A stretch of 64,000 nt of DNA. It comes from Carallia brachiata. Lineage: Eukaryota; Streptophyta; Magnoliopsida; Malpighiales; Rhizophoraceae. The DNA lies in NCBI GenBank assembly GCA_021464245.1, contig JADCRB010000016.1, positions 15,160,526 through 15,224,525 of the forward strand, read 5' to 3'. A model generated the notes under the pieces. It was given only the letters and a program-made list of their open reading frames with translations. It was not told the DNA's origin and did not search any database. Made by a program: the position numbers and the translations under genes. How positions within the stretch are numbered: the first letter of the stretch is position 1; every line of letters begins with the position of its first letter. Shown here piece after piece: positions 4,777 to 60,239 of this stretch.

Positions 4777-5117
4777 AGAACGAACTAAGACGGTACTTTT
4801 GAAGTGCTTTTGAATCCGCAATTTTCTTTGCTACTTTATTAATAAACTACCTACTAGCTTTTTTTAAAAACTAAAAAAAAAAAGAAGGCAAAATGGTGAA
4901 GGGTATATCAGTCAATTAAGGAAACAAGACGTGGCCGCAAGAGATTTCTGACCGAACCATGAGAGCATCGCAATATCGTATCGTTGTCGGAGATTTCAAA
5001 AAGCCAAAAAAAAAAAAAAAAGGCAAAGAAATTTTGAAAACCCTAACGTTGGAATTGGCGACTGTATTTGAGGAAACAATTATAGAGGAAGAGAGAGAGA
5101 GAGAGAGAGATAAGAAG

Positions 5118-5686
5118 ATGGGTTCGGAAAAAAACGACGGCACGAGCGTTCCACCGACGGAGACAAAGCTTTGCGCAAATGGGTGTGGATTTTTCGGCAC
5201 GGCGGCGAACATGAATCTCTGTTCCAAGTGCTACCGTGACCTGCGGGTCAAAGAAGAGCAGGCCGCCTCGGCCAAAGCTGCCATGGAGAAGACCCTTAGC
5301 TTGAATTCCAATCAGCAGCAGGACGGGATAAATTCCGATCTCCTCCTCCTCCGTACCCATTTCGGCCAATCGGTGGCGGCTGCGGCTGTTTCTTCTGATT
5401 CGTCCTTATCATCGTCATCATCGGCAACAGCAGCCGCAGAAGTAGTCTCAGCAGCAGCGTCGTCGGAGCCCGTGACGGCGGCGGTCCGGAAGGTGGCTAA
5501 TAGGTGCTTTACCTGCAACAAGAAGGTTGGCCTGACGGGTTTAATTGCAAGTGCGGGAGCACATTCTGTGGGAGCCATAGGTACCCGGAAGACCATAGCT
5601 GCACGTTTGATTTTAAGGAGGCTGGCAGGAGCGCCATTTCGAAGGCTAATCCTGTGGTGAAGGCTGATAAAATGGACAGGATCTGA
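5118..5686 (+). CDS. SAP5-like: A20/AN1 stress-associated zinc-finger protein (SAP5-like), frameshifted in AN1
   Basis: Plant SAP proteins carry an N-terminal A20 and a C-terminal AN1 zinc finger, act in stress responses and are linked to ubiquitin binding or ligation. The start at 5118 gives MGSEKNDG, typical of the SAP5 group; the open frame upstream of it is leader (GA repeat at 5088-5110). A20 cysteines are at residues 19, 23, 35 and 38 (C-x3-C-x11-C-x2-C). A Ser/Ala-rich linker follows, then AN1 begins with CFTCNKKVGLTG. At 5534-5543 one base is missing: the +0 frame runs into unrelated residues to a stop near 5660, while the +2 frame supplies the rest of AN1 (C-x1-C-x4-C-x2-H-x5-H-x-C) and the usual family end VKADKMDRI, stopping at 5684-5686. 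The gene is intronless, as is usual for the family. It is either a recent pseudogene or carries a sequencing or assembly indel; the otherwise clean frame favours a recent or artefactual change. Confidence 0.88.
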
Positions 5687-19778: not shown

Positions 19779-19893
19779 TTAGTAGGGAGGGCGGCCGGAA
19801 GCCCAATAAGCGTCAGTTGGTAACTGAATGGAATTCAGTAGATTAGGAGGCAATCCATGGAACAGCTGCGCGTTAGGCTCTGTCAACACTTGC

Positions 19894-19935
<42 letters not shown>

Positions 19936-20720
19936 GGCTGCTGCTGCCCCACTGCTCCCGGTGATCCGATTGCACCGCCTTGCATAGCTAGCTGTTGATC
20001 GTCCTCTTCCAAAGGGAGCCTTTCATAAGCAGCATTACTGAACGAAGCTGCCATAATCACCACCGGACCGGAGGCAGTAAGTGTTCCAACAACACTTCCA
20101 CCCACCACTTGGCCTTGTCCGCCAGCCAAGTATATAGTCAATCCGGTGGCTGCCGGCGGCGCTGGTGGTGGTAGAAAGGAGCCAGCTAGTGACAATATCT
20201 CAAATCGACCATGTAAAGTCACGATTGCACCTGGCGAGGCTGGTTGCCTGAGAGTCACGTTTGTTACAGTTCCATTTCCAGTCATAATGGAAACCCCTCT
20301 TTGTCTCCTCCTTGCAAATGTTGCAACACTCTCCACAATATCACATCCATCGGCAACCTCCATCAAGTGGGTGCGCAGCGCATTGGCGCTATCGCGGGTG
20401 ATGATGATTGGTGGCTTAGGCTTGTTCTTCGATCCGGCCGGCCTGCCTCGGGCCCTTCTCGTGAGCTCTCCACCTCCTGAGCCCGGAGAAACCAGCTCTT
20501 TCCCTTCAATATTGCTGCTGCTGCCGATGTTGTTGTTGTTAATCTCCTCGCGCTCTCGTTTCGGGGCCTTGTTTAGGCCACTGCTGCTGCCACTTTGCTC
20601 ATCTTCTGAGTTTTGCTGTTGTTGCTGGTGGTGAAATTGATGCTGCTGGTGATGTAGCTGGAAATCTCTGGTATGGAAAGGAGGTGGCAAGGAATGCCCA
20701 TGAGCCGTTACTGGATCCAT
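19779..20720 (-). CDS. AHL: AT-hook motif nuclear-localized (AHL) DNA-binding protein, clade A
   Basis: A 313-residue intronless frame. AHL proteins bind AT-rich DNA in the nucleus and modulate growth, flowering and hypocotyl elongation in complexes with other AHLs. The N-terminus ([20 protein letters not shown]) is His/Gln-rich, an acidic/Ser patch and basic KAPKRERE follow, and a type-I AT-hook lies at about 91-104 (core RGRP, then [10 protein letters not shown]). The PPC/DUF296 domain is at about 117-238 and includes the GRFEIL core at 171-176 and the GGQGQVVGG stretch. The C-terminal tail has a polyglutamine run at about 259-277 interrupted by one Pro, then a [13 protein letters not shown] phrase and YWASGRPPY. 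Single exon, one AT-hook and these end motifs place it near the Arabidopsis AHL22/AHL24 group (from memory). The ATG at 20718-20720 matches the family start. Nothing is truncated. Confidence 0.96.
19870..19980 (-). repeat. glutamine-codon microsatellite in the AHL gene
   Basis: The plus strand shows alternating TGCTGT/TGCTGC triplets that read on the coding strand as mixed CAA/CAG codons, giving 15 consecutive Gln after a QQQP start. Mixed codons slow replication slippage, but the length is still likely to vary between alleles. Confidence 0.8.
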
Positions 20721-38723: not shown

Positions 38724-38823
38724 TAAACATATCAAATATGGCACGGCATAATTTTTTTTTAAACTCACTTATTTTATATTGTATCTTAACATGGTCTATT
38801 TATCTTTCATACCGTGTCGTGTT

Positions 38824-39618
38824 TGTAATGGGTAAATTTCGAGTTTAAAACAATTAAACTCGAAAATACAAAAATAAATTACAAATAAAAATTTAAAACT
38901 AAAAGAAAAATTTACGTGGGGTCGATTTCCGTAGATCCTCCGATTAGTGTTCCTTTCTTGACTCCGTCAAGGGCTGCACGAGCTTGATCTTGACAGAAAT
39001 AATTTCCACAGCTTTATCTTCAATTGGGTAGAATGAAACTGTATCTGATTTGAACGTTTTGACTATGGTTAAGAGCCGCAGAGACCTGATCTGAACCGAT
39101 CTGGATTAATTTCACCGAGAGTCGAAGGGACTTTTTCTCGGATGAGCTGCCTGGATTTTGCTGAGGGCCGTATGAGGTTTAATTCCAGCCGGATTTGTAG
39201 TAATTTGATATTTTTAGATCCATATTCTCATAAATTCAAATCTAGAGCGATCCGAGAATATAAACCTAAAAATAATTTTAGAAATGGAAACAGCAAATTT
39301 TTTGGGGGCTTACCCCTGAAATATGTCTCAAAAAGGAGTTAGGAGAGTATACTGCAGAGTAAAAGCATGTAGGAAAAGGAGAAATTTTTTTGAGAGATTT
39401 TTAAAATTTTCTTTTTCTCTCAAATTCTCTGAATTTTTTTATTTACAAATTTGCTAAATATATTTTGAACTGAAGGGCAAGGGCCTATTTATAGGACTCC
39501 TTTCCCATATGAACATCATATGGGAAAGGAATCTTTTTATAATTTTTTTTTTCTTTGGTCGGCGTTGCCGACTTTGAAATCGGCAACACCGACTTTGACC
39601 TTTTTTTTTTCATTTACA
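38824..39618 (-). repeat. 3' LTR of the Gypsy element
   Basis: 795 bp, from TGTAATGGGTAAATT to CATTTACA in plus-strand reading, matching 46811-47608 along its length. Reading into the element it adjoins the polypurine tract. Confidence 0.93.
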
Positions 39619-39635: not shown

Positions 39636-40782
39636 GGTCGGTAAGGAAGAACTTTACAGACGTGATCCGCACCGAGTCTTGAAGTCCAGTTTGAAACTTG
39701 AGATGTTCTGATGAACATTGAACGTTGAAGTCTTCTAACTCTGACTATGTCTGCTGTTGTTGGATCGCAATAGGAACCCGATACGATCTTGAGAAAGTTA
39801 GCAATCCAGCCAATATAAAAATTGACTATCTGGCTCCAAGTGCGTTCGACCTTCCATAGCTCGCAAAGGCTGGCAAAGGTTCTTTGAAGTTCCAAAACTC
39901 TGGTGAGGATGATCCGGTAGGCAAAGAACTTGAACCTCCCCAAAAGGAAGGCCCAGCACTTTGGAACTTCAAAACCGGCACACACAGAGACTAATTGTAG
40001 TGATGATTCCAACTCTGCTTCGACGTAAGGAGAGTAGTTGGAACTTTCCTGTACATTGCCGCATCCAAAGGAAGATTAGGATGATTGTAGCGTCTCATCC
40101 CTCTGTGGTAGATGTGAACTAAGGAGAGTAGTTGGAACTCCATGACACCGATGACGTTGGAGACTGAGTTTCGAGGACTTTTAGGGATCTCTCGAGGAAT
40201 ACTACTCCTTCTTTTCTTAGCTCATGTGCCTCCAACTTCTTGATCAAAGAACTTCCTGGGACAAGTGCAGAGACTAGTCATTTTCTTTTGAGAAGAAGAA
40301 GAACTGAGGGGTGAGTATTATGACTCGGACATGCAGGATATATATATACATAACATAAAGAGATTTTTTTTTTTTGAAAAGTCAAAAAAAAGGTACGCAG
40401 AATTGAGTAGGGTCCTCCACGTCCCTTTCCCCATAAGAGACAAAAGAGGCAGCGGCTGATGCGGGTTACGAAAGTCGTTACCGTATGCCGCAGAAGTCGT
40501 TGTCGTGTGCTACAGAAGTCATTGCACCTTATCTTGTCAGCAGTCCTGGCGGGGCCCAAGGCGCAGCTCTAAGTCAAGCTCGGCCTCGTTTGGTGGGCCG
40601 ATGATGTGGATGTTGCTGGAGCCTCCCGGCTAGTTGATGCTGTAGGAATATTCTGAGAAGAGAGGCAAGGTTTCGCCGGAATGACTTCATTCTGCTAGAA
40701 AAGTTCCTCCTGAACTTAAGTACTTAGGAGGAATGAAACCTTGACTAATTCCGTAAGACCACCAGGACCAGTACGCATGCTC
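39636..40782 (-). other. element 3' region between the homeodomain frame and the 3' LTR
   Basis: Open frames exist on the minus strand (39614-40012, which runs into the LTR, and 40278-40559), but neither shows a domain. The phrase AAGGAGAGTAGTTGGAACT occurs twice (about 40026 and 40119). This is probably untranslated element sequence or decayed downstream parts of the captured gene. Confidence 0.35.
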
Positions 40783-41163
40783 CTATAAGTTACGGCTTTG
40801 ATCGTTATAGCCTGAAGAGACCATTTCCGTAGTAGAACTCGGACCTGCTTTATTTGAGGGCGAAACTGTACCGGTGGGATCTACTATCGGAACGGCAGAT
40901 TGTTCTTTAAAAAAAGCAGCTCTCAGTGTTGGTTTCTTCCTGCTTCTCCGATTCTGGAACCAATAAAACACATTTTTTCTTTTGATTGCCCCGAGCGGGC
41001 GCAATCGTGAGACAAGTTGATAAATCTGAGATGCATTAGGCATAATACCTCCATTGTTGTGGAAGACTTCCTCCAAAATTTGCAGTTGTACCATGGTTGG
41101 TTGCCATCTTGTGCCAGGTGACCTTTCTTCTCCCTTATCTTGAGGTTCTGCAACTGGTTCCAT
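40783..41163 (-). CDS. WUSCHEL-related (WOX-like) homeodomain protein carried in the retrotransposon
   Basis: An intact 126-residue frame (MEPVAEPQDKGEERSPGTRW onward). WOX proteins are plant transcription factors that control stem-cell niches and organ founding. Residues about 18-77 form a homeodomain: TRWQPTMVQLQILEEVF is helix 1, ASQIYQLVSRLRPLGAI helix 2 plus the loop, and KRKNVFYWFQNRRSRKK the recognition helix with the invariant W-F-x-N-R. The NVFYWFQN run and the long loop before helix 2 are WOX features. QLQILE recalls the WOX13 clade and FQNRRSR the WOX9/11 type, so the clade is unclear. No WUS box (TLxLFP) is seen in the 49-residue Ser/Pro-rich tail. The frame has no stop although neighbouring pol has several, which hints at later capture or selection. 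It lies between integrase and the 3' LTR in the same orientation. Expression is not shown. Confidence 0.82.
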   Translation of the reverse strand: MEPVAEPQDKGEERSPGTRWQPTMVQLQILEEVFHNNGGIMPNASQIYQLVSRLRPLGAIKRKNVFYWFQNRRSRKKPTLRAAFFKEQSAVPIVDPTGTVSPSNKAGPSSTTEMVSSGYNDQSRNL

Positions 41164-41250: not shown

Positions 41251-41260
41251 CTTTTATATT
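41251..41260 (-). promoter_or_regulatory. TATA-like box upstream of the homeodomain frame
   Basis: The minus strand reads AATATAAAAG about 90 bases upstream of the ATG at 41163, a normal plant core-promoter distance. A second weaker one (GAGTATAAACTG) lies just upstream near 41280 in sequence resembling the repeat unit at 44957-45245. Confidence 0.4.
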
Positions 41261-41299
41261 TTTGGGCCGTTCACAGTTTATACTCATGCGGGCTAAGAG

Positions 41300-42871: not shown

Positions 42872-44308
42872 TCATCGAAGCACATACTCCAAAGTGATGC
42901 TTTCAAATTCATCCATTAGCTGTCGAGCACGTTGATGGTAAGGTGCAAGGTCCTCTTTCTTCACGTCATACAACCCTGTAAATTGGTTGATGACGAGTTG
43001 GTAATCTCCATGGACTTCTACAGTTGGAATCTTCATATCGACAGCCATTTGAAAACCAATGATCAAAGCCTGGTATTCAGCAATACTATTTGAACATAAC
43101 TCACAGAGAATGATAGCATATGGTAGTATTTGTCGTTGAGGAGTGACAAACACTATGCCGGCACCGGCACCATCACGCATTACTGCACCATCAAAGAACA
43201 TTATCCATAGTGGCAGTGTCTCAATGTAAAAGACCTCTTCATCTGGAAGATCATCTGCAAGGAAGTCTGCTAGAACTTGTCCTTTGACTGCTTTTTGAGG
43301 CACGTAGACAATGTCGTAGCTTTGTAGGATTACTGCCCACTTGGCAAGTCGTCCTGACAAGATTGGTCTAGATAAGATATATTTGACAGGATCAGCTCTG
43401 GCAATGAGACGTACCGTGTGAGCTTGCATGTAGTGCCTCAGCTTGTCAATGGCAAAGAACAGTGCTAGACATGTCTTTTCAATGGGCGAATAACTCAGCT
43501 CCGGACCGTTTAGTGTTCTGCTCAAGTAGTACAGAGCAACCTCCTTTCCCTGCTCGTTTTCCTGTGCAAGCAGGGCTCCCAAAGATCTTTCCTGCGCTGC
43601 AATGTAGAGAATCAACGACTTTCCTTGAATTGGAGCTCCCAGGACTGGTGGATTGGAAAGATACTTCTTTATGCTCTCAAAGGCTTTGCTGCAAGCTTCG
43701 TCCCACTCGAAGTTGACATCCTTCTTCATCAACCGATGGAAAGGTTGACATCTCCCAGCTAAGTTGGAAATAAAACGGCGAATGTAGGCCAGCTTTCCTT
43801 GTAGACTTCGCAGCTCGTGCAGGTTTTTAGGTTCAGGCATCTTTTGAATTGCCTCAACCTTTGACTGATCAACTTCGATTCCACGATGGCGCACCACGAA
43901 CCCAGAAACTTTCCTGATGTGACACCGAATGCACTTGAGAGGGTTCATTTTAAGCTGATGCCTGCGAAGTCTTTCGAACACCGTCTTGAGATCCTCGAGG
44001 TGGTCTTTGCGCTTCTTAGTCTTTACAACTAAGTCATCAACATAACATTCTACAATCTTGTGCAGCATGTCATCAAAAATTTTTTGCATAGCACGTTGAT
44101 AAGTAGCGCCATCATTTTTTAATCCAAACGGCATAACTTTGTAGCAGTATATACCTTTTGGGATGCGGAATGCTGTCAACTCCTCGTCTTCTGGTGCCAT
44201 TCTGATTTGGTTATAGTCTGAAGAACCATCCATGAAAGACAATGCTTCGTGACCCGTTGTTGCATCGACTATGATCTCCGTTATGGGCAATGGAAAGTCA
44301 TCTTTCAA
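42872..44308 (-). pseudogene. pol: reverse transcriptase, RNase H and second (archaeal-type) RNase H
   Basis: A 478-residue open part of pol. RT shows LSFMDGSSDYNQIRM with the first catalytic Asp (27) and ECYVDDLVV with the YVDD box (89-92). The first RNase H (about 232-350) looks catalytically weak: LILYIAAQERSLG lacks the usual Asp. The second RNase H (about 368-478) has WIMFFDGAV (D373), IAEYQAL (E411) and VHGDYQLVI (D435), the pattern of the additional RNase H of Tat elements. The frame ends at a TGA; past it, the usual NADALA block reads TQAYALA, so the fourth acidic residue is Tyr. The upstream stop at about 44320 is a CGA-to-TGA type change in the conserved VDFRDLN motif, so RT continues into 44327-44590 and further to about 44740. 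Confidence 0.93.
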
Positions 44309-44745: not shown

Positions 44746-44956
44746 TGGACGAGCCTATCTTTGAAGCACTTCTGACTTAGGTTGGGTGTGTCCTTCCTCC
44801 TATTTAGGATTAATAAAAAAAAAAAAAAAAAAAGGGCTATCCTTCTGAACACATAGCGTAGGACTGGGATGGTGCTTGCAGATGGAGCCTCCTACAAGTG
44901 AAGTTCAGCTGGCTGTGGCTGCTTCTCACCTGTTAGGGTATGCATTGTTGTATTGT

Positions 44957-45245
44957 CGCCTTTTATACTCGTGCGGGGCAGGAGTGTTGAATTGTGGTGT
45001 TGCCTTTTATACTCGTGCGAGGCAAGAGTGCTGAACTGTGATTGATTGATTATCGCCTTTTATACTCGTGCGAGGCAGGGGTGTTGAACTGTGGAGCTGT
45101 TCGCCTTTTATACTCGTGTGAGACAGGAGTATTGAACTGTGGAGCTGTTCGCCTTTTATACTCGTGCGAGACAGGAGTATTGAACTGTGGAGCTGTTCGC
45201 CTTTTATACTCGTGCGAGACAGAAGTATTTTGTTGAACTGGTGAG
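44957..45245 (-). repeat. six tandem units, each with a TATAAAAGG box in the element's sense
   Basis: Units start at 44957, 45001, 45054, 45102, 45150 and 45198; the last four have an exact 48-bp period. On the minus strand each unit reads CTCGCACGAGTATAAAAGGC (with small changes), so a canonical TATA box follows an imperfect CTCG-CA-CGAG palindrome. The array lies between ORF1 and pol. Confidence 0.85.
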
Positions 45246-45700: not shown

Positions 45701-45930
45701 ACATAACAGTAGTTTCGAAATTTACCTGCTTTATTGGGTCAGGTCGAAATACATTTCTGACCTGAAAATATGGCAGCATTTTTTTCGAACTAGATATGAC
45801 CCATTCCACTTGGAAATGAGCTTATGGCTGAGTCGGTACTCTCATCCTTCTGTTGGTCTGATTAGCTAAAAACTGTGCCCTCAAATCGAGATGATTGAGG
45901 GCGATCTTCGCGGTTGACTGCATCAGCGGG
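45700..45930 (-). repeat. diverged second copy of the integrase C-terminal end
   Basis: This segment aligns by eye with 41700-41930 in the same orientation: ATGACCCATTCCACTTGGAA matches ATGGCCTGTCCCATTTGGAA, and GATTGAGGGCGATCTTCGCG matches GATCGAGGGCGGACCCTGCA. Translation gives HKLISKWNGSYLV against DKLTSKWDRPYLV. Thus an integrase tail sits upstream of pol as well as at its end. Confidence 0.6.
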
Positions 45931-46537
45931 TTGGGCTTGGTGAAACCCTTTGTTGACGTCATCTATTTGCTGCCTTAATTCCTTCATATTTTCAATCAAC
46001 TGTGCATATCCGCTAATCAGCTGTGAATATCTGCGGTTTAAATCTGCAAACATTTTTTCTATTCTGGTGGTGTTGGTCAGCCTGACGTCGGCATTGGTAA
46101 ATGGTTCTCTGCGAAAGACTGTTGTAGAGGGCCCGTTTGATCTGTTGTTGAGCAAAATTTGATATTCTATAAAAGACTGGAGTAGAGGGATCTTCTTCTT
46201 CTGTGTTCGTTTGTTCAGAATAGGTCGGATTCTGCTGTTGGGCAAAATTTGATGCTCTACCCCTAACTTCGGTAGGGGTAGGTGATCGCCTCCTCTGTTT
46301 AGTGACAGAGTCACGTGAGAAATCTAACTGCTGTGTAAGCTGCAAGTCCTCAATTTTAACTTTGTTGGTGGCGAGGAACTTTGTTCTTGCGCGAGTCTGT
46401 GGACTCATTTGAGTAGCAAGAAACTGTGTCCGTCCGCGGGTTTGTGGTCTTGCGTACCCAATTAGGGTAGTTGATATAGGTAGTGGAGCAGTTGCCTTCT
46501 TTTTTGTAGCAGTGGTTGTACTTCTTTTTTGTGTCAT
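45862..46537 (-). pseudogene. ORF1 / gag-position frame, frameshifted
   Basis: The first coding segment after the 5' LTR. The start MTQKRSTTTATKKKATAPLP is basic; a repeated RPQTRGRTQFLAT / SPQTRARTKFLAT phrase follows, then a shift near 46150 into a frame with a helical, coiled-coil-like stretch (MFADLNRRYSQLISGYAQLI) and a tail that resembles the integrase end. No capsid or zinc-knuckle motif is recognised. Position suggests gag remains, but the identity is not proved by sequence. Confidence 0.45.
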
Positions 46538-46785: not shown

Positions 46786-46804
46786 GGTCCCACCGAGCGT
46801 GCCA
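46786..46804 (-). other. primer-binding-site-like sequence
   Basis: The minus strand reads TGGCACGCTCGGTGGGACC six bases after the 5' LTR. Starting with TGG, it is placed as a tRNA 3'-end complement should be. I could not assign the tRNA species from memory. Confidence 0.55.
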
Positions 46805-46810
46805 AAAATT

Positions 46811-47608
46811 TGTGACGGGTAAATTTCGAGTCTAAAACAATTAAACTCAAAAATACAAAAATAAATTACAAATAAAAATTTAAAAATAAAAGAAAAATTT
46901 ACGTGGGGTCGATCTCCGTAAATTCTCCGATTAGTGTTCCTTTTTTGACTCCGTCAAGGGCTGCACGAGCTTAATCTTGACAGAAATAATTTTCACAGAT
47001 TTATCTTGAATTTGGTAGAATGAAACTGTATCTGAATTGGACGTTTTGACTACGGTTAAGAACCGCAGAGACCTGATCTGAGCCAATCTGGCTTAATTTC
47101 ACCGATGGTCGAAGGGACTTATTCTCAGATGAGCTGCCTGAATTTTGCTGAGGGCCGTATGAAGTTTAATCTCAGCCGGATTTGTAGTAATTTGATATTT
47201 TTAGATCTATATTCTCATAAATTCAGATCTAGAGCGATCCGAAAATATAAACCTAAAAATAATTTTAGAAATGGAAACAGCAAATTTTTTGGGGTTTATC
47301 CCTAAAATCTCTCTCAAAAAGGAGTTAGGAGAGTATACTGCAAAGTAAAAGCACGTAGGAAAAGGAGAAATTTTCTTGAGAGATTTTTAAAATTTTCTTT
47401 TTCTCTCAAATTCTCTAAATTTTTCAGTTTATAGATATTTGCTAAATATGTTTTGAACTGAAGGGCAGGGGCCTATTTATAGGGTTCCTTTCCCATGTGA
47501 ACATTATATGAGAAAGTAATCTTTTTATAATTTTTTTTTCTTTGGTCGGCGTTGCCGACTTTGAAATCGGCAACGCCAACTTTGACCTTTTTTTTTTTTT
47601 CATTTACA
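46811..47608 (-). repeat. 5' LTR of the Gypsy element
   Basis: 798 bp from TGTGACGGGTAAATT to CATTTACA (plus-strand reading), matching 38824-39618 with scattered, mostly transition, differences and small length changes in T runs. Confidence 0.93.
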
Positions 47609-48611
47609 GTGTTGTATTTAAAAATTTAAATAATGAGTTCAGCACAGCTCATAAGTTTAAGTACTATGGGCTATGAGCTCGTATCGTGTCATGCTTAAGT
47701 CGCTCACCGTACTATTCTTGGACTACTCACCGTGTCGTAGTTGGTCCACTCACTTTATCGTGTGTAAGCCATTGATCATGTCTAAACTGTAATATGCCTA
47801 AATAATTGATTATATTTAAATTAAATTGCGCTTATATCATTCATCGTGCTTAAATAGTATCATGCATTTTTATAAATAAATAAATATAAAATTTAAGTGA
47901 AAAATAAAAAATATTACTTTTTTATTATTAAATATTTAAAATTAAGATTTAAAATAACCAACTATAAAAGTGAAATATTAAATTTTATCCAAAAAAATAC
48001 AAACAAAATATTATATCACATATAATTTTTTGTTGAAATTTAAACAAATATATCATATAAATATTATTTATAACTTTTGTAATTTATGATTTAAGAAAAA
48101 AATAAATAAATAAACCCTTATAAAATGGTGATGTATTATATTCTATTAAATAAAAATTAAAAATAAAGAAAATATATAAATCATTGTAGTTAACTTGGTG
48201 AAAAAGTTGGTACTTTCATTCTCTTGAATTATAATTCAATGCTTGTTACTTACCCTTTTCATTTTAATTTTAAATAAAGTTAGTTTTAAAAGCGCTTGCT
48301 TGTTGCTTACTCTTCTTATTTTGATTTTAAACTTATTTTTTAAAAGGACTTGCTCTGGCCCGTTTATGGGTCGTATTTGGTCCGTGCCTGCATTCAGACC
48401 CTACCTAAACTCGGGTCTTGCCTGAACCCGATCTCATCATAGTCGTGTCTAGCCTGACCCAGGGGCTAAAAATATAAACTCAACTCAAGTCCTAACATTA
48501 GCTGTGTCCAACCAGAACTTTATACCATACAATGCGAGTCGTGCTTGACACAACCTATGCCAGGCTGGGTCAGGCCGACCCACGAGCCGTCCAACTCAAC
48601 TGACATGTCTA

Positions 48612-57703: not shown

Positions 57704-60239
57704 ATGGAGTGGAGTGCTTGCATGGAATATGAGAAGCTCGTGATCAGGATGACCACTCCCAGGTTGGTTGATTGATTGAATTTCTCTTTTTTGATCCTTT
57801 CGTTGACAACGATTCTTGAAAACTCCATCTGGGGTTTCTTGTTTTCTCGGTTGTTTTTTTTTTTTTTTTTTTTTTACAATTTTGGTTTTTAGTTTACCTC
57901 AAAGTTTTGAACTGCCCGTGTCTGATCTTGGTTTTTGTCTTCCCGTTGGTTTTGGAGACTCATACTGTAATAACGATTTTTTTTTTTTTTTAAAATTTAT
58001 GTCCCGAAATCTTTACTTCCTATTTATCTGAAATTAAGATCTCGATATTTAATAATCTTCCATTTTCTTGCTCTTTTTCTAGAAAATTTGTCCGAAATTA
58101 GTGCGGATTTCCGTATTATTTTCGTCTAATTATTCTGATAATTATTTTGTTGACTTTTTCTTCTGATTTTTACCCACTCTTACCGGAAGCTTACAAAGTA
58201 TTAATTAATGCTTAATAAGACCTTTTCAAAGGTTGTTTTCATACTTAGGATTTTCCCTTTTTTCCTTTTCTTTTTTTTTCTTGCTTGAATTTAAAGTTCA
58301 AAGTTTGGAAATTTGAAGAAAATAATTTCCACTGACTTGACCTTGTTCTCTGTGTTTCCAGAGTGGTCATCGACAATGCGGCCTGCCCCACTGCGACCGT
58401 CGTCAAGGTAAGCCTTCCACGAAGCACACTTCAGGGAAACACTAATCAAAGAAAAACCCACAAAATTTTTCTGCAAAAAAATGGCTTGGTTATTTGACTA
58501 ATTTTCCTTTCATTATTTTCCGGGTTTTTTTTTTTTTTTCAGGTTGATAGCGCCAGAAGGCATGGGATCTTGCTGGAGGCTGTTCAGGTCCTTACAGACC
58601 TCAACCTCTCCATTAAAAAGGCTTACATTTCCTCTGATGGGCGTTGGTTTATGGATGGTATTAATTTTGGTTTTTTTTCCCCTTTTGTAAAGTATTTTTT
58701 AGGTTTTTTTTTTTTTTTTTTTTTAATTCCATTCATCAGATCAGTTTGGTCTTGTTTTGGAAGTTGTCTTGACGGGTTGTCTAATAATTTAATTTCGGAT
58801 CTGCAGTTTTTTATGTGACCGATTTGAATGGAAATAAATTGACTGATGGAAGCGTTATTAATTACATGGAGCAGGTAAATTGTTATGCTTAAAGCACGTT
58901 TCTTGTGTTTACCTCTATTTGATTGGATACAATAATTCCTTTTCTCTTCAGAAACTGAAATATCGTTTTTTTTTTGTCCCCCTTGTTTTGGACGTTATTT
59001 GCAGTCACTTGGGACCATTCACAATCGTAGAACCAACAGTTATGATGGTTTAACTGCTTTAGAACTCACTGGCACTGACCGGGTTGGCCTTCTTTCTGAG
59101 GTGTTTGCTGTACTAGCCGATCTGCAATGCAATGTGGTGGAGGCTAAGGTTTGGACTCATAATGGCCGGATTGCTTCTTTAATCTATGTTAAGGACTGTG
59201 ATCTGGGTACCCCGATTGAGGACTCGCAAAAGATCGATAGGATTGAGGCACGTTTGAGGAATGTTTTAAAGGGGGATAATGATATTAGAAGTGCGAAAAC
59301 TTTGGTTTCAATGGCAGTTACCCATACAGAAAGGAGATTGCATCAGATGATGTTTGCTGATAGGGACTATGAGAGGGAGCCTATTTTGCAGCATAATACA
59401 GATTCTCCAGTAGTGACCGTGCAGAATTGGGTGGAGAGAGGTTATTCGGTTGTGAATGTTCAGTGCAAGGATCGGACGAAGCTTTTGTTTGATGTTGTAT
59501 GCACGTTGACAGACATGGAATATGTTGTATTTCATGCTACAATCAAGACGGCAGGAGACAGGGCATCTTTGGTATGTATCCGGTACTTGTATCATTTTAA
59601 ATTTTCTATTGACAGCAGTTGTAAACCAGATTATTGACATTCTGTTTCATTTCCATCGTTTTAGGAATTTTATATAAGGCACACAGATGGAACCCCAATC
59701 AGTTCAGAGCCTGAGAGGCAACGTGTGATCCAATGCCTACAAGCTGCTGTCAAGAGAAGAGCATCTGAGGTAATTGTTATATTCTGATTCTTAATTCTCC
59801 ATTGAATTTTGATTGATTATACCTGTCAGGTTTATTTTGTGAAATGTTAAACTGAACCATTTGTGATCAACAGGGTGTGAGGCTAGAATTGTGCATGCCA
59901 GATAGGCAGGGGCTTTTAGCAGATGTGACGAGAACATTTCGCGAAAATGGTCTCAATGTGACGAGGGCCGAGGTGTCCACCACGAGCGACATGGCTCTAA
60001 ATGTATTCTACGTAACTGATGCAAGTGGCAACCCTGCAGATCCTATGATAATCGAATCTGTTCGACAAAAGATCGGGTTGAGTAGTTTGAAAGTGAAGGA
60101 ATTGCCACCATTGGTGTACCATCAAGAAGCGAAAAGGGAAGAGCAAGATGGAGGGGTTGCTGGGGCCGTGTTGCTATCTCTTGGGAGTATAGTGAGGAGG
60201 AATCTATACAATTTGGGATTAATCAGATCATATTCTTAA
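57704..60239 (+). CDS. ACR8: ACT-domain repeat protein, ACR8-like, seven exons
   Basis: ACR proteins have four ACT domains and are thought to sense small ligands such as amino acids. Exons: 57704-57762, 58362-58407, 58543-58657, 58807-58874, 59005-59571, 59665-59769 and 59874-60239. Every intron is GT-AG and the phases agree, giving 441 residues, the normal ACR4/ACR8 length. The start [20 protein letters not shown] is family-typical. ACT1 is at about 37-115 ([20 protein letters not shown]), ACT2 about 114-190 ([19 protein letters not shown]), ACT3 about 250-315 ([20 protein letters not shown]) and ACT4 about 321-395 ([20 protein letters not shown]). Each shows the ligand-site pattern D-R-x-G/K-L-L in its first loop-helix. 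The C-terminal [20 protein letters not shown] with SYS matches ACR8-type tails. No disruption was seen, so this is a functional-looking gene. Confidence 0.95.

Follow-up and report, generated by a model that had tools for sequence, protein, structure and literature searches.

In a stretch of 64,000 nucleotides from the genome of Carallia brachiata (contig JADCRB010000016.1; hereafter, the window), an open frame of 126 amino acids, located at positions 40783-41163 of the minus strand and running from ATG to stop, encodes a WUSCHEL-type homeodomain inside a Ty3/Gypsy long terminal repeat (LTR) retrotransposon of the Tat type. The gene to which this frame belongs is a standing accessory component of a high-copy Tat-type Gypsy family, in gag-bearing and gag-less forms alike. 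The evolutionary scenario that we favor, and consider somewhat probable given the sequence comparisons, is that an old capture of a spliced transcript gave the element an accessory WUS-type gene, that selection has kept the homeodomain, and that the encoded protein would act in trans in stem cells.

The initial annotation of this DNA had claimed a full homeodomain of WOX type and suggested a Pfam profile search, a homeodomain tree, a comparison of nonsynonymous and synonymous divergence among copies and a check of the gene position in related elements. The 126-residue frame significantly matches the Pfam Homeodomain family PF00046 (E=6.6e-12, 45.5 bits against a cut-off of 22.9) and contains both of the motifs quoted in that annotation. 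Its best relatives among solved structures are WUSCHEL (6ry3, 7e-17), aligned without gaps, and STENOFOLIA (6wig, 2e-14), in agreement with the claimed WOX/WUSCHEL-type identity. The unbroken frame of 126 codons noted initially is indeed open but does not represent the whole gene, which continues in the same frame to about position 40537 through three internal stops. Given this continuation and the C-terminal motifs that survive in it as remnants, the window copy of the gene is a truncated relic.

Gene and element across the genome

When compared with the genome, the window gene matched at E <1e-63 in all 150 places that were scored (of 1967 first-look candidates), so that the frame cannot be attributed to chance. 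A degenerate 24-mer for NVFYWFQN (variant I of the helix) matches the 337.5-Mb genome exactly at 582 sites, 12 of which fall in the host WOX genes found, and the reversed control matches nowhere; a second helix type, NVYFWFQN (variant II), accounts for 168 exact sites, some of them in older relicts. In a further search, in which 150 of 1670 candidates were scored, most rows had the second or the first helix type and open frames. With up to 3 mismatches allowed, 27-mers from the integrase, the homeodomain and the noncoding stretch 3' of the gene hit 791, 671 and 963 sites, respectively, the last being the most widespread of the three counted. All eight integrase sites that were chosen, among the matches listed, for having no listed NVFYWFQN motif nearby (further sites qualified) still carry the gene or a part of it (part only in L100 and L101). 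Six of these eight loci (L098 and L101-L105) have the second helix type, and NVYFWFQNRRHRET could be read in four of the six, the frame being disturbed there in L098 and L104. The motif sites and the eight integrase loci bear out one of the options raised by the initial annotation, namely that the ancestors of the element carry the homeodomain as a standard open reading frame (ORF).

The gene occupies the same place in the relatives as in the window, between the integrase and the 3' LTR; among 20 long copies, picked among the best protein matches, the 3' LTR was found downstream of the gene in 19 (the exception is L018). Both gag and protease are recognizable in 12 of 21 long copies and neither is in 8, including the window; because these copies were chosen by the gene, the numbers reflect its presence in both forms of the element and not how frequent it is. 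In copy L022, Pfam supports gag whereas the protease scores below the cut-off, and the protease-bearing frame of L027 has no Pfam match. The remaining copy, L026, has a protease without a recognizable gag and could be an intermediate or a recombinant between the two forms. Searches gave no match in a protein database of public genomes or in NCBIfam, and the 6 pattern stretches found in IMG/VR viral contigs included no relative.

In intact relatives, the gene is a continuous frame of 203-208 residues, extending about 80 residues past the end of the window frame, with the homeodomain followed by a WUS-box-like motif and then by an EAR-like end. An open frame of 203-208 residues starting at ATG and containing L[PS]LFP and an LELxLG end is present in 11 of the 20 long copies; copy L027 is open for 208 residues but has LPLLS and LKLRLG at the two motifs. 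Among 15 full-length aligned relatives, the WUS-box (T-L-x-L-F-P) takes the form ETLPLFP in 10, ETLSLFP in 2, EILPLFP in 2 and EPLPLFP in 1. The EAR-type end, a putative repression motif as in WUS, reads LDLELxL in 14 of the 15 and FNLELRL in L023; many copies end in LDLELHLGPR or similar.

The features of the window copy are as follows, from the 5' to the 3' side of the element.

47609-47613, plus strand: target-site duplication GTGTT, 5' side of the element
46811-47608, minus strand: 5' LTR with TG...CA ends, Kimura two-parameter (K2P) distance to the 3' LTR 0.073
46787-46810, minus strand: presumed primer binding site adjoining the 5' LTR (from sequence only)
45862-46537, minus strand: overlapping 5' frames of 150 and 174 amino acids with no gag or protease domain (the longer element form has these)
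44956-45229, minus strand: tandem repeats, spacing mostly 48 bp, GAGTATAAAAGG six times
42872-44308, minus strand: reverse transcriptase, RNase H and second RNase H (aRH-type, RVT_3) in one frame of 478 amino acids
41700-42700 (approximate limits), minus strand: integrase remnants with internal stops, 64% of the integrase query covered
41252-41258, minus strand: TATAAAA about 95 nucleotides before the ATG, possible own promoter
40783-41163, minus strand: frame of 126 amino acids, N-terminal part of the WUSCHEL-type gene (frame list, Pfam, structure match)
40921-41112, minus strand: homeodomain, residues 18-81 (Pfam and structure match)
40537-40782, minus strand: degraded C-terminal remainder of this gene in the same frame, interrupted by stops
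40645-40677, minus strand: WUS-box-like remnant GETLPLFSEYS (GETLPLFPEYS in many relatives)
40558-40578, minus strand: EAR-like LDLELRL near the C-terminal end
38824-39618, minus strand: 3' LTR
38819-38823, plus strand: target-site duplication GTGTT, 3' side of the element

The pair of TG..CA LTRs and the matching GTGTT duplications identify an LTR retrotransposon; duplications were examined in the window and in copy L009, which has TGTAC on both sides. The second RNase H (aRH) is a feature of the Tat clade and is located between the RNase H and the integrase in Ogre and Retand elements (Neumann 2019). In the window, RVT_3 follows RT_RNaseH in one frame, and the order in the sense of the element is reverse transcriptase, RNase H, RVT_3, integrase remnants, homeodomain frame and 3' LTR; neither gag nor protease is recognizable in this copy. 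Both the Tat-type Gypsy setting and the sense placement of the frame between the integrase and the 3' LTR are thus as originally described. Gaps aside, the alignment of the two LTRs shows differences at 55 of its 795 sites, which places the insertion at about 2.8 million years ago. The substitution rate used for ages is 1.3e-8 per site and year.

The TATAAAA upstream of the gene is intact in 39 of the 40 copies that cover its position, with a conservation of 0.99 compared to 0.94 for the surrounding stretch, which is itself well conserved. In the gag-less form, the tandem repeats (44956-45229 in the window) contain C[AG]CACGAGTATAAAAGG, which resembles CGCATGAGTATAAA directly upstream of the gene (about 41277-41295); the repeats are perhaps promoter units that were duplicated. 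None of the nine frames of copy L013 that were scanned (7 antisense and 2 sense) encodes TRP28, and a TRP28 gene in the 3' region was rejected on this count; one match, to TM231, was below the family cut-off and involved a low-complexity frame.

Relation to WUSCHEL and age of the proposed capture

At least 14 host WOX homeodomains were found, including nine of the WUS clade, three intermediate and two ancient ones (the naming within clades is our own). Among these, the two host WUS genes give the highest scores against the element homeodomain, with 33 and 32 of 67 residues identical in ungapped alignments; the other 12 host homeodomains give gapped alignments and lower scores. According to a structural study of WUS, an extra residue at position 54 is unique to this protein, and R38, N90 and R94 read bases (Sloan 2020, PMC7203112). 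The element homeodomain has the extra residue (histidine in variant I and tyrosine in variant II), and variant I keeps R38, W39, K82, N83, Y86, Q89, N90, R94, I66 and F85 in our alignment. The motif ETLPLFP is common to the element gene and both host WUS genes. In the host WUS genes, the homeodomain and the WUS-box are in separate frames with stop-bearing DNA between them, whereas the element gene is continuous and therefore fits capture from spliced RNA. An AlphaFold model of the element protein is confident over about residues 21-70 only, that is, the homeodomain, and all 11 Foldseek matches of this model at E up to 0.001 are WUS or STENOFOLIA chains, with WUS first. In a tree of 21 homeodomains, the element falls, as a long branch, on the WUS-clade side of a branch with 89/89 support. 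An origin from the intermediate (WOX8/9/11) or ancient (WOX13) groups, which NRRSR and QLQILE might hint at, was considered, but the alignment scores, the lack of gaps and the motifs of the C-terminus favor the WUS clade.

Thus, the element protein resembles WUS and the modern WUS clade in the position-54 residue, the base-reading R38, N90 and R94, the ETLPLFP-type WUS-box and the EAR-like C-terminus. It differs from WUS in its shorter N-terminal region, single continuous frame and hundreds of mobile copies, in helix 3, which reads NRRSR or NRRHR instead of NHKAR, and in the residues after the WUS-box, which are EY in most recent element copies instead of IH; the relict L112 has PIH. As a side observation, host contigs C65 and C90 each carry one WUS and one WOX13 homolog, resembling a duplicated host block.

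Given the identity of only 33 of 67 residues to host WUS, the presence of the gene in the relict L112 and the occurrence of both helix variants in many copies, the sequences indicate that the capture is old and not recent. L112 as a relict is about 30% different at the DNA level; its placement in an element rests on a 1.3 kb alignment that includes noncoding flanks, and the noncoding DNA after its gene is itself repeated, with at least 39 other scored matches at 73-82%. The other old loci, L106-L111, are all six broken.

Probable selection on the homeodomain

The initial annotation had taken the open frame of the window, next to a mutated pol, as a sign of recent capture or of constraint. As a sign of constraint it does not hold, this copy being truncated with its C-terminal motifs behind stops; constraint is seen when lineages are compared. 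Between L112 and L013, the three codon positions of the homeodomain differ by 0.23, 0.17 and 0.42, and the flanks mostly by 0.29-0.32 (0.14 over the final 214 bases of the alignment). For the same pair, the NG86 omega of the homeodomain is 0.12 (p=5e-10), with a dS of 1.4-2.2 that is near saturation and is therefore not to be read as age. The comparison of variant II (L102) with L013 counts 16.5 differences at 46.7 synonymous sites and 18.5 at 154.3 nonsynonymous sites (NG86 omega 0.27, p=6e-4). The proposed comparison among copies, made on 27 non-redundant copies that were chosen, window aside, by protein score, gives a ratio of nonsynonymous to synonymous divergence (dN/dS) of 0.27 for the homeodomain versus 0.48 for residues 83-160; dN/dS in the pol pieces of 21 copies is 0.05-0.30.

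Nonsynonymous and synonymous changes (N:S) were also counted separately for changes found in a single copy and those shared among copies, against a neutral N:S of 2.55 that is an estimate from noncoding singletons. For the homeodomain without the motif, 75 copies yield 37:13 for single-copy and 25:24 for shared changes. In 40 pattern-drawn copies, which were sampled according to their place in the motif list and not by protein score, both classes are below the neutral value (single-copy 22:16, p=0.05; shared 20:17, p=0.02), and in 83 copies including those chosen by protein score, single-copy changes (35:11) differ from shared ones (41:32) with p=0.03. Altogether, the homeodomain is probably held by purifying selection in replicating lineages, with individual copies decaying after insertion.

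Possible function, alternatives and known systems

Under the favored scenario, a spliced transcript of a WUS-clade gene would have been captured by an early ancestor of the element. The protein would be made, possibly from its own TATA promoter, enter the nucleus and bind WUS-type sites, and its EAR-like end would recruit co-repressors. WUS binds TGAA repeats cooperatively as dimers (PMC7203112). For the element protein, DNA binding appears likely because the base-reading residues are conserved, and co-repressor binding is plausible given the EAR-like end. EAR motifs bind TOPLESS. The protein would thereby influence host genes in trans, in the meristem or stem cells that any heritable insertion has to go through. 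Action on host genes appears somewhat likelier than self-regulation because TGAATGAA, the G-box and TTAATGG were not in excess in the sequences scanned, namely four LTRs, one piece of pol and one of the 3' region (60 shuffles each). The mobile regulator of stem-cell genes envisaged by the initial annotation is a hypothesis in this sense, and its strongest form, in which the element carries a long-held WUSCHEL mimic acting on shoot stem cells, with the recognition helix split into at least two widespread variants, is tentative and, on present evidence, rather doubtful.

Several observations, along with this lack of motif excess, weigh against the favored scenario. A WOX3-like host gene shares 35 identical residues with the element homeodomain, more than the 33 of 67 for WUS, albeit in a gapped alignment with a lower score; F101 is not conserved, and variant II has Y and F at residues 85 and 86. 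The element is a long branch in the homeodomain tree, the order of its neighbors is weak and the tool warns that long branches meet; its position on the WUS-clade side of this tree is tentative. The introns of the host WUS genes are predicted from the frames and not from transcripts. Residues 82-160 of L112 and L013 differ by 0.27, 0.32 and 0.34 at the three codon positions, with little codon periodicity; hence, the codon-position differences suggest a constrained homeodomain and a middle part under hardly any constraint. The comparison of variant II (L102) with L064 yields an omega of 0.54 (p=0.12). Single-copy and shared changes do not differ significantly in 48 less biased copies (20:13 versus 37:27, p=0.83) or with a cut-off of 4 copies (p=0.25 and 0.30 for the 83 and the 48 copies), so that this test is not decisive. 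Finally, NVFYWFQN, LxLFP and the EAR-like end occur in one open frame in only 9 of the 40 pattern-drawn copies, and just 5 of these 9 frames start at ATG.

Some of these observations would be expected if the captured WUS transcript had merely hitch-hiked as a passenger useless to the element: the lack of the helix motif and both C-terminal motifs in one frame in 31 of the 40 drawn copies, the near-neutral residues 82-160, the non-significant test in the less biased copies and the absence of WUS-motif excess; moreover, gene capture by plant retroelements is known (PMC7264820). Given, however, the third-position excess in the homeodomain, both between L112 and L013 and between helix variants, the presence of the gene or a part of it at all eight integrase sites picked for lacking the motif, and the two helix variants with many copies each, we find this explanation improbable. 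We assign a similarly low probability to the protein binding the LTR or the 3' region of its own element and controlling transcription, as has been proposed for the TRP28 proteins of Retand. The gene lies in the same region as the Tat accessory ORFs for which DNA-binding proteins are proposed (PMC11963269), and the sequence bound by the element protein may differ from that of Arabidopsis WUS, but the three WUS motifs are not in excess in the four LTRs, the pol piece or the post-gene stretch. A capture of recent date, or a local insertion confined to the window copy, is refuted: the open frame beside a mutated pol, which had suggested it, is outweighed by the 150 scored relatives, the 582 and 168 motif sites, the old relicts such as L112, the two helix variants in many copies and the fact that none of the 14 host WOX homeodomains found is more than distantly similar (33 of 67 residues identical for WUS).

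It is about an even call whether the homeodomain patch was, in addition, exchanged repeatedly between lineages by template switching, in which case its divergence would not reflect selection alone; this possibility is compatible with the capture and retention of a WUS-type gene proposed here. The long copies are a mosaic by sequence: pol is about 99% alike in most of them (L021 and the window are less similar), but they diverge in the 5' half and in the 3' region. Compared to L013, L102 differs by 0.17 in the homeodomain, 0.13 in residues 82-160 and 0.00-0.04 in other parts, and L022 by 0.09 in residues 82-160 and 0.00-0.02 elsewhere, so both have patches more diverged than their flanks. Template switching alone would not, however, lower the divergence at second codon positions of L112 (0.17) under that of most of its flanks (0.29-0.32). 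The diverged patch inside the gene of L013, L022 and L102 has the appearance of cassettes swapped between lineages. In the pol of L009-L028, copies about 99% like L015 each carry several small gaps (e.g., 2 gap events in an integrase of which 418 of 420 bases are covered); these represent either real decay or errors of long-read assembly, and a mutated pol in such copies should be treated with care.

Tat elements commonly carry accessory ORFs downstream of pol (PMC6317226, PMC7264820), and those of Retand are mostly antisense and encode TRP28, for which DNA binding was proposed (PMC11963269). The Retand and Ogre subclades are distinguished by the phylogeny of reverse transcriptase, RNase H and integrase; TRP28 ORFs are frequent in the former and the plant mobile domain in the latter. 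The present element is like Retand in being a Tat element with an accessory ORF between pol and the 3' LTR and with tandem repeats; in contrast to the antisense TRP28 ORFs, the WUSCHEL-type gene is in sense and encodes a homeodomain. In Phalaenopsis, an AlkB/2-ODD ORF was described in Gypsy elements, in a study that screened 121 angiosperm genomes and reported 15 extra domains, among them B3, PMD, G-patch and YgdH (LONELY GUY) (PMC9289625); in both cases, a Gypsy lineage with dual RNase H has acquired and retained a host-type gene. A homeodomain is not among the extra domains described in the main text of that study, where "homeo" is absent. The closest precedent is a 2023 meeting report of WOX genes flanked by LTRs and amplified with target duplications in Vigna marina and V. 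riukiuensis, with more than 1000 WOX copies in the latter (PMC10714607). The likeness lies in the amplified WOX-family genes, bounded on either side by LTRs and target duplications; the account of this report names no element lineage, domain layout or selection. The present host is probably not a legume, a leghemoglobin query having given 3 weak matches of 40 residues at 58% and no close one. A literature survey, largely at the level of listings, found no account of a Tat element with a homeodomain ORF, the Vigna report being the nearest case. The claim of new biology in the initial annotation has to be moderated in view of that report, the find being not wholly new. Retention of a captured host gene as a Tat accessory ORF is a phenomenon of a known kind; what distinguishes the present case is a complete regulator of WUS layout with signs of selection.

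The role of shoot stem cells as a bottleneck for transposon spread has been presented as an open question (Gutzat 2020, PMC7560203), and an element that keeps a WUS-type protein provides a direct way to test it. For genome annotation, hundreds of element copies can swell the number of WOX genes counted in genomes of this sort, and Carallia brachiata is, as the Vigna report suggests, not the only such case. An Rfam search over the window gave no match, and host frames at 4959-5660, 19779-20720 and 58999-60239 have, by eye, the look of an A20-type zinc finger, an AT-hook (AHL) and an ACT-domain protein, respectively.
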